DNA of 64,000 nucleotides, from contig JAEUWC010000020.1 in NCBI GenBank assembly GCA_016786465.1, positions 62,001-126,000 of the forward strand, given 5' to 3'. The stretch is from Bdellovibrionales bacterium (GTDB taxonomy: Bacteria > Bdellovibrionota > UBA1018). Of this stretch, positions 54,118 to 59,004 are shown in pieces. The notes below the pieces were generated by a model that searched no databases, was not told the origin of the DNA, and worked only from the letters and a program-made list of their open reading frames with translations. A program made the position numbers and the translations under genes. Each line of letters opens with the position of its first letter. The first letter of the stretch is position 1.

Positions 54118-55542
54118 ATGGGCATGCCGAATATCATGCAGACCGGTAAGTCCGGCCTGATGACCTCGAAAGCGGCCATCGGGACGACCGGTCACAACAT
54201 TTCGAATGCCAATACGGAAGGCTTTTCACGCCAGCGCGTGGACCAAGCCACAACGACGCCACACCCACGTGCCGGCGAAAAGCGCGTGATCGGAACCGGT
54301 ACAAAGATCGATCGAGTTCGCCGAATCAACGACGAATACCTAGAAAAACAGATTCGCAGCAGCCATCGTCTTTTGAACCACTTCGAAGAAAAAGACATGA
54401 TGCTGAAGCAGGTTGAAGACATCTTCAACGAAATGAACGGCGATGGCTTGAATCGCCTGATGTCTCGATATTTCAATGAATTTCGTAAGCTAGCCAACGA
54501 ACCCGATAACGAAGCGGTTCGCCAATCCGTTCGTGAAGCTACCCAGTCGATGGTGAATGATTTTCACCGGATTCGAAACGAAGTCGTTTCGACTTCGCGT
54601 CACATCGATTCCCGTCTTGAGGGCTACATTTCTGAACTGAACAATTACGCGGATCAGATGCGGACGTTGAATCGCCGAATTCGTGAAGTGGAATTAGGCA
54701 ACGGATCGCCTAACGATCTTTACGATCGGCGCGATGAAATTTTGAAAAAGATTTCGTCTTACTTGGATATCACCACCCATAAAGACAATCACGGTAACGT
54801 GAACATCGACATTCAAGGGGTTGGGCCGCTGGTGACCGGTGACGCTTTTGAACAGTTTTCGACCGAAAGAAGCCCGATGGACGACCAGGGCAAGATGGAT
54901 GGCTCGGTCGATATCAGAACTTCGGGATCGGTTCGGGGCATCGTTACTCACAACATTAAAGGCGGAAAACTGGGGGCCCTTTTGGAAGTTCGCGACCAAG
55001 CGATCACCCAGGTTCTTAACCGCATGGACGAACTAGCGTACAACATCGCGGAATCCACGAATGCGATTCACGAACAGGGATTCACGCGTGACGGGGTTCA
55101 GGGCGTGAAGTTTTTCAAGCAGCTGGACGGAAAGAACCGCGCGGCCGAACTTTTGGAACTTTCGGATGAAGTGAAATACAATTCGAACGCGATCGCGACG
55201 GCCGCGGCTCCGGATGCTCCGGGCGATAATCGAATTGCGCTTTTGGTTTCAGGACTTCAACACCACCGCATCATGAATGACGGCAAGGTGACCGCGGACG
55301 ATTTCTATAATTCGATCGTCAGTGACGTCGGTGTTTCTTCATCCAGAAACCGGGAAAACCTGGGTCAACAGAAAGAAATTCAAACGCAGCTTGGAAAGAT
55401 GCGCGATTCGATTTCGGGGGTCAGTCTGGACGAAGAAACCACGAATTTGATGCAGTACCAGCACATTTACGGTGCTTCGGCGAAAGTGATTCAAGTTGCC
55501 GATGAAATGCTGAAAACGGTCTTGGAATTAAAGAGGAACTAA
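54118..55542 (+). CDS. flgK: Hook-associated protein 1, FlgK
   Basis: FlgK is the first hook-filament junction protein. The 474-residue product has the N-terminal motif KSGLMTSKAAIGTTGHNISNANTEGFSRQRVD and the C-terminal NLGQQKEIQTQLGKMRDSISGVSLDEETTNLMQYQHIYGASAKVIQVADEML segment, both diagnostic. It is somewhat shorter than the enterobacterial protein in the variable middle. It starts 9 bp after flgN. ATG at 54118, 54124 or 54133 are all possible; the first was kept. Confidence 0.95.
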   Translation: MGMPNIMQTGKSGLMTSKAAIGTTGHNISNANTEGFSRQRVDQATTTPHPRAGEKRVIGTGTKIDRVRRINDEYLEKQIRSSHRLLNHFEEKDMMLKQVEDIFNEMNGDGLNRLMSRYFNEFRKLANEPDNEAVRQSVREATQSMVNDFHRIRNEVVSTSRHIDSRLEGYISELNNYADQMRTLNRRIREVELGNGSPNDLYDRRDEILKKISSYLDITTHKDNHGNVNIDIQGVGPLVTGDAFEQFSTERSPMDDQGKMDGSVDIRTSGSVRGIVTHNIKGGKLGALLEVRDQAITQVLNRMDELAYNIAESTNAIHEQGFTRDGVQGVKFFKQLDGKNRAAELLELSDEVKYNSNAIATAAAPDAPGDNRIALLVSGLQHHRIMNDGKVTADDFYNSIVSDVGVSSSRNRENLGQQKEIQTQLGKMRDSISGVSLDEETTNLMQYQHIYGASAKVIQVADEMLKTVLELKRN

Positions 55543-55561
55543 GCCTAGCGGCGAATAGGTT

Positions 55562-56536
55562 ATGAGAATTACGGAACGAAACAATTTTGAAACGGTCCGA
55601 GACAGCATCTCCAGAAGCCGGGGACGCATGGACGGTCTTCAACATCAGGCGGCTACGCTGAAGCGGATCAACGCGCCGTCGGATGACCCGATTGGATCGT
55701 CCAAGATTCTGGAAATTCGCACCGACAAAGTGAACAACGATCAGTTTCAGATGAACGCAAAGCTTGCGGAATCTTTTCTGATGAACACCGACCACACCTT
55801 GGGTGAATTGGCCGATATCGTGGTTCGCGCAAAAGAAATCGCCTTGGGGCAGTCCAGCGGCGCTAGTTCAAATGACGAAACCCGAGTTGCAGTAGCTGAA
55901 GAAATTACTCAACTATACAAACAATCGGTCGCCGCGGCGAACAGACGGATCGGCGATCGATACCTGTTTGGAGGCTATAAAACCCACCAGCCGCCCATTT
56001 TGCCAGATGGTCAGTACCGTGGGGACAACGGCGAAATGATGGTCGAGATCGCCCGTGACGTCTTTATTTCTAGCAACGTTCCGGGGTCGGTCGCCTTCAA
56101 TACTCAGCCCACCGCAGTGGCTTCACCGAACCCAGAACTGACCGATCAACAGCGCCGCGGACCCGCGGGATCCATGGACGAAGGGGGTCCCCGTCCAGAA
56201 AACATCAATCTTTTCGACGAACTTCAAGCGCTTCGGGTCAGCTTACTGGCGGGCGATATCAGTGGTGTTCGAGATACCCTCGAACGCTTTGATGCTCTTC
56301 ACGGAACCCTGATTTCAAATCGCGCAAAGGTGGGATCCAGGTTGATGGGCATTCAATCCACCGCAAGTTCGCTCGAACGGCACAATCTGACCAATGCTCA
56401 GCTGAACTCTGCGCTAGAAGACGCGGACATGTCCCGTGTGGTCAGCGATCTGGCGAAGGAAGAAACGGTCTTCAAAAGTTCTCTGGCTAGTGCCCAGAAA
56501 CTGATCCAGCCTACGTTGCTTGATTTCATTAGATAA
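55562..56536 (+). CDS. flgL: Hook-associated protein 3, FlgL
   Basis: FlgL is the second junction protein and is related to flagellin. The 324-residue product has flagellin-like N- and C-terminal helices (DSISRSRGRMDGLQHQAATLKRINAPSDDPIGSSKI at the start; LERHNLTNAQLNSALEDADMSRVVSDLAKEETVFKSSLASAQKLIQPTLLDFI at the end). It follows flgK by 19 bp. The 113 bp to csrA hold no gene. Confidence 0.94.
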   Translation: MRITERNNFETVRDSISRSRGRMDGLQHQAATLKRINAPSDDPIGSSKILEIRTDKVNNDQFQMNAKLAESFLMNTDHTLGELADIVVRAKEIALGQSSGASSNDETRVAVAEEITQLYKQSVAAANRRIGDRYLFGGYKTHQPPILPDGQYRGDNGEMMVEIARDVFISSNVPGSVAFNTQPTAVASPNPELTDQQRRGPAGSMDEGGPRPENINLFDELQALRVSLLAGDISGVRDTLERFDALHGTLISNRAKVGSRLMGIQSTASSLERHNLTNAQLNSALEDADMSRVVSDLAKEETVFKSSLASAQKLIQPTLLDFIR

Positions 56537-56649
56537 AAGTCTAAAGAGAATGGTTGAAAGGTACGTAGCGTTATACTAAGAGTGGCCTGTTCCGTTTTTC
56601 ATTACACGCAGGACGCGCCGAACGTGTCACAGGGATGGGTGGATTCAGT

Positions 56650-56874
56650 ATGTTAGTTCTGACCCGAAAACTTGGGGAAAGTATCGCAATCGACGATCAC
56701 ATCAAGATCGTTGTGGTTCAAATCAAAGGCAAGCAGGTTCGCCTGGGCATACAGGCTCCGAAGGAAACCAAGATTCATCGCGAAGAAGTCTATTCTGCGA
56801 TTCAAGATTCAAACAAAGAAGCTGTCAAAACCGCACCAGCGATTTCGCAGGTTTCAAAAGCCCTGAAGGGTTAG
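56650..56874 (+). CDS. csrA: Carbon storage regulator CsrA
   Basis: CsrA is a small dimeric RNA-binding protein that represses translation at GGA-containing leaders; flagellin is the classic target near flagellar loci. The 74-residue product starts MLVLTRKLGESIAIDD and has the RNA-contact arginine in IHREEVY. The C-terminal tail is longer than in E. coli. ATG 56650 was chosen over the upstream in-frame codon at 56635 because it gives the invariant start. The partner and antagonist fliW is next. Confidence 0.96.
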   Translation: MLVLTRKLGESIAIDDHIKIVVVQIKGKQVRLGIQAPKETKIHREEVYSAIQDSNKEAVKTAPAISQVSKALKG

Positions 56875-56945
56875 TTCTGGGCTAAGGGGTTGCAATTCCC
56901 GCCTATTTGCGATTCAGTAAGGTTCAGGTCTGGAGGACTTTAGCC

Positions 56946-57509
56946 GTGATCGTAAAAACAGGACGTTTTGGTGATCTATCTATTCACGAATCAGAAATCG
57001 TAAAAATTCCGACGGGGATTTTTGGTTTTCCTGAATTCACCGAATTTTGCTTGGTCGATCCAGGCGATGAAACTTTGATCCTGTGGCTTCAGTCCACACA
57101 GAACCCTTCCATTTCGTTTCCGATTCTAGAACCTAAAATTTTCAAGGGCGATTACATCGTTCGCCTATCCGCTGCGGAACTTCGCGAACTGAAGTTGGAA
57201 AACATCAACCAGTCTGCCGTGTTTTCCATTCTGACAATCCCCGAAGATGTCGCGCAAATGACTGCAAATATCAAAGCACCGCTGGTGATCAATCTGAAAG
57301 AACAGATTGCCCGCCAGGTGGTCCTTCAGGAAAACGAATACAGCATCAAGCATTTGATGTTCAAAGAACTGAAGACTCACTTAGTGACCATTGCATCCAG
57401 CCGTCGAACGGAAACTGTGGCTCAAGCAATGGGCCACCCAGGCGGATCGATTCCAGTATCGATCAAAAGCCTGCCGCCGTCTGCTTCGGTTCGAAGCCTT
57501 CAGTCGTAA
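56946..57509 (+). CDS. fliW: Flagellar assembly factor FliW (CsrA antagonist)
   Basis: FliW binds CsrA non-competitively and frees flagellin mRNA; flagellin in turn titrates FliW. The 187-residue product has the family motif VKIPTGIFGFPEFTEFCLVDP and the FPILEPKIFKGDYIVRL segment. GTG 56946 is preferred over a TTG-type codon at 56907 because a strong GGAGG lies 9 bases upstream and the product then begins at the fold. It is about 40 residues longer at the C-terminus than Bacillus FliW. Adjacent to csrA, as usual outside the gamma-proteobacteria. Confidence 0.93.
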   Translation: MIVKTGRFGDLSIHESEIVKIPTGIFGFPEFTEFCLVDPGDETLILWLQSTQNPSISFPILEPKIFKGDYIVRLSAAELRELKLENINQSAVFSILTIPEDVAQMTANIKAPLVINLKEQIARQVVLQENEYSIKHLMFKELKTHLVTIASSRRTETVAQAMGHPGGSIPVSIKSLPPSASVRSLQS

Positions 57510-57561: not shown

Positions 57562-59004
57562 ATGTGTTGGGCAGTTCTCAAGGGGATTTTTGTGGCAAAA
57601 AACACCAAGTCTTTGAAGTTACAGGCCTTTTCTTTGATGTTAGCGACTTTTGCTGCATCTTGCGGAAAGGAAGAAAAGCCCAATTGTACCGCTGAATTTC
57701 AGGCGGATCTCCAGAAGCTTACGACACTTTCGAAAACCCTAACTTCGACGGCGGCGGCAGATGCCTTTTTGAACAAGGTGAACGACTTTGAATCCAAGTG
57801 GTCCGGGGAAGAATGTCTCGGAGCGCGCGAGCGAGGCGGCGCAAAATCCGAATTGAAGGGTTCGGACGAGGCGAGTCGACTGAAAGACACCGCCAAACGC
57901 GCGAAATCGGCCTTTTCCGTTCCAACTTCGGGCCCGCAAATATTGACTCCGACTGCTACGCCTTCACCAACTGCTACGCCCTCACCAACTGCTACGCCCT
58001 CACCAACTGCTACGCCTTCACCGACTGCTACGCCTTCACCGACTGCTACGCCTTCACCGACTGCTACGCCTACGCAGGGTCCTGGGTCATTAATCGTGAC
58101 CCTGTACGAAGCAAGTGACTATTGCACAGTTGCATCGTCATCCAGTCCTGCGACCCTGATTCTGAATCCAGGCACGGATTCCCTAAGCCAATGCAGGGCC
58201 CAAGTCGGGCATTTGGCGTCAAAGTCCATTTGGTCAGTCCAGATTAACGGCCGTTGCGTTGACATTAGTGACACCGACGCCGTCAGTGCCTGCACAGGCG
58301 TCGACTTGCCCGTAGTTGCCGGGCGGCCGCACGTCCAATTTTACGATTCCAGCGATTATTGTTCCGGAAAAGTTTCCGAGGCCCGAATGTTCAACCTTTC
58401 AGAACCTCTGCACGTCCAGTGCATGGGGTGGGCTACAAATCCAAAGTCGACGACTTGGTCTTACAAGGTGGATGGACGTTGCACAGATGTCGCCGACACG
58501 GACTTTCTTTCAGCGTGTGTCACAATGAATTTACCGATTCAAAAGAAGTCGAACGAAAGAGAAATTCTAGTCTTTGGTTCGTCCGACTACTGCACGGGTA
58601 CTGTTCACAAAGCGGGGGCTCTCAACGACGGGGATGACCTGTTTACACAATGTTCAAACTTGAAAACCGTCAATTCTGGAAGCGCCCAGGCGTGGGCCTA
58701 TCGCTTGAATGGAGCATGTGTAGACGTTGCAGATACGGACTTTATGTCAGCTTGCCTTTCGATCAACACACCTGTGACGGGCTTAACCCAAGTTCAGTTT
58801 TTCCCCGGATCGGATTATTGCAGCGGAGCCGTCTCGTATGCTGGATATCTGCCCAAGGGAAGATCGCCCACGCTGGCAGAATGCAGATCGCTTCGCCTAA
58901 ATCCACTTGCGCCGTCCAGTAGTTCGGTTTGGTCCGTCAAGGTCGACGGGGCGTGCAGGGATGTCGCAGATTCCGCATTCGAACAAGTCTGCATAGGACT
59001 TTAA
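57562..59004 (+). CDS. Lipoprotein with a TPSPTA repeat stalk and four Cys-rich tandem repeats
   Basis: No known family was recognised. The 480-residue product has a lipoprotein signal (LKLQAFSLMLATFAASCGKEE, Cys34) and a polar helical segment (about 45-115). A stalk follows, of seven six-residue TPSPTA-type units (about 129-171, encoded by an 18-bp tandem repeat). Four homologous repeats of about 66-72 residues come next. Each has the order SDYC, then Q/E-C, then W..(K/N)-G-x-C-x-D-(I/V)-(A/S)-D and a final C. The cysteines are 188/211/232/244, 267/287/307/319, 344/364/386/398 and 420/441/465/477. The C3-C4 spacing is always 12. This suggests disulfide-bonded extracytoplasmic modules held off the membrane. 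Starts at ATG 57562 and GTG 57592 both have good ribosome-binding sites. It follows fliW by 52 bp. Confidence 0.8.
   Translation: MCWAVLKGIFVAKNTKSLKLQAFSLMLATFAASCGKEEKPNCTAEFQADLQKLTTLSKTLTSTAAADAFLNKVNDFESKWSGEECLGARERGGAKSELKGSDEASRLKDTAKRAKSAFSVPTSGPQILTPTATPSPTATPSPTATPSPTATPSPTATPSPTATPSPTATPTQGPGSLIVTLYEASDYCTVASSSSPATLILNPGTDSLSQCRAQVGHLASKSIWSVQINGRCVDISDTDAVSACTGVDLPVVAGRPHVQFYDSSDYCSGKVSEARMFNLSEPLHVQCMGWATNPKSTTWSYKVDGRCTDVADTDFLSACVTMNLPIQKKSNEREILVFGSSDYCTGTVHKAGALNDGDDLFTQCSNLKTVNSGSAQAWAYRLNGACVDVADTDFMSACLSINTPVTGLTQVQFFPGSDYCSGAVSYAGYLPKGRSPTLAECRSLRLNPLAPSSSSVWSVKVDGACRDVADSAFEQVCIGL
57949..58074 (+). repeat. 18-bp tandem repeat, seven units
   Basis: Seven back-to-back units related to CCGACTGCTACGCCTTCA, differing mainly at G/A (base 3) and T/C (base 15). 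Each encodes six residues of the TPSPTA-type stalk. Being an in-frame minisatellite it can change stalk length without a frameshift. Confidence 0.97.

Follow-up and report, generated by a model that had tools for sequence, protein, structure and literature searches.

The gene at 57562-59004 of the window (the whole 64,000-nucleotide stretch of DNA analysed) encodes an exported lipoprotein carrying four tandem copies of a four-cysteine module on a proline-rich stalk. The module is named in none of the libraries searched, yet recurs across many families of the phylum with near-perfect cysteine conservation. We read the protein, tentatively and at somewhat less than an even chance, as an envelope lipoprotein whose stalked array of cysteine-clamped, crystallin-derived modules acts as a binding or coat head. 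Its features are:

57562..59004, plus strand: whole lipoprotein gene, from an ATG at 57562 (alternative GTG at 57592); 480 amino acids, stop included
57592..57663, plus strand: signal peptide (residues 11-34) with lipobox AAS-C, read by eye; Cys34 at 57661-57663, Gly at +2
57664..57921, plus strand: N-terminal cysteine-bearing segment (residues 35-120), NC..EF...FE.KW..EEC
57952..58071, plus strand: Thr/Pro/Ser/Ala stalk (TPSPTA), an 18-nt tandem repeat of 6.7 copies
58087..58323, plus strand: module 1; Cys 188, 211, 232, 244
58324..58554, plus strand: module 2; Cys 267, 287, 307, 319; modelled singly by AlphaFold at pLDDT 89
58555..58782, plus strand: module 3; Cys 344, 364, 386, 398
58783..59001, plus strand: module 4; Cys 420, 441, 465, 477

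The initial annotation described a lipoprotein on a repeat stalk, and both parts were found: a signal peptide, a lipobox (FAAS-C, residues 30-34, by eye) and its cysteine lie upstream of the TPSPTA repeat. The GTG start at 57592 is as plausible as the ATG and gives a more typical signal peptide. The N-terminal segment ahead of the stalk is probably helical, judged by eye. Each of the four tandem modules opens with SDYC, as the annotation had it (residues 185, 264, 341 and 417); the spacing is 79, 77 and 76 residues rather than the length of about 70 given there. The annotated core, W..(K/N)GxCxD(I/V)(A/S)D, is likewise present, with [ND] in place of K/N before GxC (in order of modules: WSVQINGRCVDISD, WSYKVDGRCTDVAD, WAYRLNGACVDVAD and WSVKVDGACRDVAD). 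Module 1 is 32-34% identical to modules 2-4. All eight modules of this lipoprotein and a paralogue match the module profile at E values of 1e-24 to 6e-34, the same eight having built the profile, and independent genomes match it at E values down to 4e-23. With this inter-module identity and these profile matches, the four-module repeat is not due to chance.

Exactly four cysteines are present in 61 of 62 modules of the family, a disulfide-type conservation that agrees with the original proposal. The last two cysteines had been assigned an invariant 12-residue gap; the spacing in the window protein is fixed, with 11 residues intervening (12 as a difference in index), and across the family C3 and C4 are 11 residues apart in 58 modules and 12 in three. 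The sole exception to the four-cysteine rule is the middle module of a three-module lipoprotein in genome G032 (L026), where C2 and C4 are lost and C1 and C3 are kept. The joint loss in this one module, on which the pairing is based, implies the predicted disulfides C1-C3 and C2-C4. The genome of the window has three DsbA-family matches. The most constant residues of the module are Cys, Trp, Gly and Asp, which look structural.

The starting profile (A1) was made from the eight modules of the genome itself and, with rebuilt profiles (A2 and A4), was searched against 369 genomes of the phylum. With A1, four-module proteins came to light in G043 and G035, two further genera of the same family, and the three-module protein in G032; A2 and A4 recovered the module in 22 and then 25 of the 369 Bdellovibrionota genomes, and a profile weighted to distant members in 28 of 359, the last few marginal. 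There are one to four copies per protein, located C-terminally in the intact proteins examined. Most of these proteins, typically ~270-520 amino acids long, begin with a signal peptide or lipobox and a variable N-domain, which a Pro-rich linker joins to the modules. The typical array has three modules of ~60 residues, as in G190, G193, G196 and G197, four single-contig genomes of a genus that is by inference probably Bdellovibrio. These Bdellovibrio-like relatives and two four-module proteins (L024 and L025) have ordinary signal peptides and no lipobox, so that, judged by sequence, lipid anchoring does not characterise the family as a whole.

Among four four-module proteins, modules at the same position are 39-43% alike, compared with 31-36% for different positions, and position labels cluster on the module tree (0 of 200 shuffles as low), with position-specific clades not resolving individually. 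The four-module array is thus probably older than the genera carrying it. Copies also multiply within genomes, since G232 has a two-module protein (L071:5068-5637, with a Cys-rich N-terminal hairpin) beside a three-module protein. The G032 lipoprotein (L026:2117-3565) has a very long, partly masked PPGQPY repeat stalk. Two further lipoproteins, L138 and L119 (in G246 and G250), carry a single distant module at the C-terminus, and the N-terminal part of L138 has a weak lipocalin-like match (PF13648, E 0.018). A four-blade ring of hemopexin type was also weighed and then rejected, since relatives have one, two or three modules. No module was found in phages, plasmids or viral contigs, the phage and plasmid queries being one three-module protein. 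Over the collections searched (phylum genomes, phage, plasmid and viral collections and one narrow contig scan), the family has so far been seen only in Bdellovibrionota-type genomes. Its model should be useful for annotating exported proteins in this poorly characterised phylum.

The annotation also called the module unrecognised, and this holds for Pfam, NCBIfam and the PDB: a profile search with the module found no known domain family above threshold, scans of main-family proteins against Pfam, NCBIfam and PHROGs gave only low-complexity stalk or stray matches, and a PDB sequence search gave only chance matches to antibody light chains. A DUF4430 hint (1e-3) was rejected, as it had no significant stretch and was absent in relatives. 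AlphaFold modelled module 2 from 49 family rows with a mean pLDDT of 89.2, and the four-module region, from only four rows, with a pLDDT of 88.7 and a pTM of 0.78. Each module is predicted to form four strands and two helices, in the order strand, SDYC turn, strand, short helix (C2), strand (WSVKV), strand (C3) and helix (C4). The repeat is thus predicted to fold with confidence, and all four copies share the predicted secondary structure, compared as strand/helix pattern only. Foldseek found nothing at E below 0.6 in the PDB for the single module or the array, and no match among viral structures.

The pattern V.[FY]..SDsCSG ... C..l ... [VI]W[SG][VI]xVnG.C parallels the Greek-key signature of the beta/gamma-crystallins, a likeness noted before the tests reported here. 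We compared the module with that superfamily (PF00030, Crystall; PF08964, Crystall_3; M-crystallin, 2k1w; Myxococcus protein S, 1prr/1nps); the reference sequences of M-crystallin and protein S are identical to the PDB, gamma-D is a full-length match and the others were taken from PDB alignments. Module and crystallin appear to share, in this order, a strand, a folded [FY]...C.G turn, a second strand, C/D..L, an [IV]xS[IV]xV strand and a G.x.[C/W] strand, and the crystallin-like SSINV and TSIKV are kept in distant relatives of the module. In the alignment, C1 occupies the position of the crystallin turn aromatic and C3 that of the following Trp. The module differs in having four conserved cysteines, sub-threshold scores, no Foldseek match and no Ca2+ motif ([ND][ND]xx[ST]S occurs as one stray match in 62 modules, off the expected site). 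It also corresponds to one motif and part of the next (~60-75 residues), as against two motifs (~85 residues) in crystallins, and the AlphaFold models do not form a two-Greek-key, eight-stranded beta sandwich.

In Pfam scans PF00030 matched no main-family module, and the window protein gave no crystallin-profile match, falling short of the superfamily cut-offs (25 bits for PF00030, 27.3 bits for PF08964). Among distant relatives, the best Pfam match of the single-copy protein L105 (TYTFFEGANCQGRTYTFAKGTDCKRLAGSTVSSINVNGKC...) is PF00030 (E 0.0072, 16.9 bits), and the only Pfam match of the L138 module is PF08964 (E 0.034, 14.8 bits); both are below cut-off and, as L105 and L138 are from the same genus, not fully independent. 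With HMMER, L138 matched a crystallin motif model weakly (4.2 bits). Of single modules, 86% scored above 0 bits against the crystallin model, compared with 27% of shuffled and 21% of reversed decoys. We then aligned the short-module alignment, as query, to eleven crystallin motifs with hhalign. The score was 17.1, rising to 20.8 with distant relatives included (P 4.5e-4); 150 column shuffles reached maxima of 14.9 to 16.5 (0 of 150 as high), and reversed alignments ~7. With L138 added, P was 1.9e-4 and the probability 48%, in the register 4-44 to 2-40. Vertebrate crystallin motifs aligned to microbial ones, as a positive control, gave a probability of 98%, whereas the modules reached 48% at best. 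Of the Greek-key signature [FYW]x6G ... S[SIV]xV, the literal [FYW]x6G is found in only 15 of 62 modules; hhalign aligns the register expected beforehand. Together these comparisons provide moderate, not decisive, evidence for a crystallin ancestry of the module.

The likeness of V.[FY]...C.G and [IV]xSIxV could instead be convergence, the module being an independent small disulfide-rich fold of the phylum (beta-beta-alpha-beta-beta-alpha). This is possible, if on the doubtful side. In its favour, the confident models match nothing in Foldseek, a helix is predicted where crystallins have strand c and another, the capping helix, where they have b' and d', and every crystallin score is below cut-off. 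However, convergence does not readily account for crystallin families being the best Pfam match of two relatives, for module scores exceeding those of decoys, or for an hhalign alignment in the register expected beforehand that no shuffle equalled. A more specific proposal, which we regard as somewhat unlikely, is that the family is a new one in which a single Greek-key motif became stand-alone through two disulfides, replacing the partner motif and the Ca2+ sites, and was amplified into recognition heads of three or four modules, with anchors and Pro-rich stalks that can be exchanged. Should the relation to crystallins be borne out, half of the classical two-motif fold would have become an autonomous domain through disulfides, which bears on the origin of the beta/gamma-crystallins, a question in protein evolution.

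In the favoured reading of a stalked, crystallin-derived head, the protein would reach the envelope by export and carry its lipid on Cys34, with the cysteine-bearing N-terminal segment and the Pro/Thr stalk keeping the four domains off the membrane. Each domain would comprise strand a, the folded SDxC turn, strand b, the short C2 helix, a W[SGA][VI]xV strand, an NGxC hairpin strand and a capping C4 helix, and would most likely have arisen from a single Greek-key motif of the beta/gamma-crystallins that is now clamped by cysteines, the C1-C3 and C2-C4 disulfides substituting for a full second motif and the Ca2+ sites. The array would probably be a protease-resistant binding or coat head, presumably displayed on the outside of the envelope, that touches a polymer or another cell. 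Judged by its architecture, in which a Pro-rich spacer separates the anchor (or signal) from a rigid disulfide-clamped array, the protein is most economically read as a likely binding or coat head of the envelope.

Gene neighbours differ among genera, and function was therefore judged from architecture. In the window, flgK, flgL, csrA (56635-56874) and fliW (together 54118-57509) lie directly upstream on the same strand, with 52 nt between fliW and the lipoprotein gene and no terminator found in this gap, so the gene could be co-transcribed with the flagellar cluster. Among the relatives examined there is no conserved operon and the flagellar neighbourhood was not seen; the four-module paralogue of the same genome (L002) is flanked by argR/arginine genes and an FtsZ-like gene, and other relatives have other neighbours. 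The position closely behind flgK-flgL-csrA-fliW, together with the occurrence of Pro-rich linkers in periplasm-spanning proteins, would suit a lipid-anchored periplasmic protein, with a stalk spanning the periplasm and modules that bind peptidoglycan or an envelope partner, rather than a surface adhesin. We consider this unlikely, given the absence of a known wall-binding motif or family match and of the flagellar neighbourhood in the relatives examined.

The phylum is known for predators, and the initial annotation guessed at a surface adhesin for predation. The anchor-stalk-head architecture and the single-contig relatives of the clade that is, by inference, probably Bdellovibrio are in keeping with this guess, but the context does not support it and we judge it improbable: the distribution is patchy, most phylum genomes lacking the module, several relatives have no lipobox, neighbourhoods differ among genera and there are no partner genes. 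The mosaic adhesive trimer (MAT) fibres of Bdellovibrio are modular surface recognition proteins of the same phylum, a role that the module proteins may share; the fibres are trimers of ~1,000 residues with S74, TNF-like, C-type lectin or beta-sandwich tips, some with disulphides and some without PDB homologues, and four-cysteine tandem modules are not among the tips described in the available part of that account, which have other folds (PMC10769870).

The modules could also be protease inhibitors that shield the envelope from proteolysis, whether by enzymes of the cell or by foreign ones, a reading that we judge improbable. The Streptomyces metalloproteinase inhibitor (SMPI, family I36) and plant MiAMP1 are secreted, disulfide-bonded domains with a crystallin fold, and the modules resemble them in being small, secreted and, as predicted, disulfide-stabilised and crystallin-type; small, disulfide-clamped repeated domains and a crystallin-like signal would fit inhibitors. 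However, SMPI and MiAMP1 are single domains rather than stalked tandem arrays on lipoproteins and have no sequence match to the modules. No inhibitor family was matched in Pfam/NCBIfam-type scans, and the modules show no obvious exposed reactive loop that is conserved, their most constant residues appearing structural.

The N-terminal cysteine-bearing segment recurs in two more lipoproteins encoded by this genome. L002, on contig 15, is 38% identical to the window protein and has the lipobox AISG-C. L003:1009-2079 (minus strand, contig 17) is a 356-residue lipoprotein without four-Cys modules, in which the segment is followed by a Gly-Thr repeat stalk of ~60 residues and a C-terminal part made of two further degenerate copies of the segment. 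The recurrence of residues 35-120 in L002 and in the module-less L003 suggests that one anchor segment has been combined with different stalks and heads. A phylum-wide search with L003 gave mostly Gly-Thr low-complexity matches.
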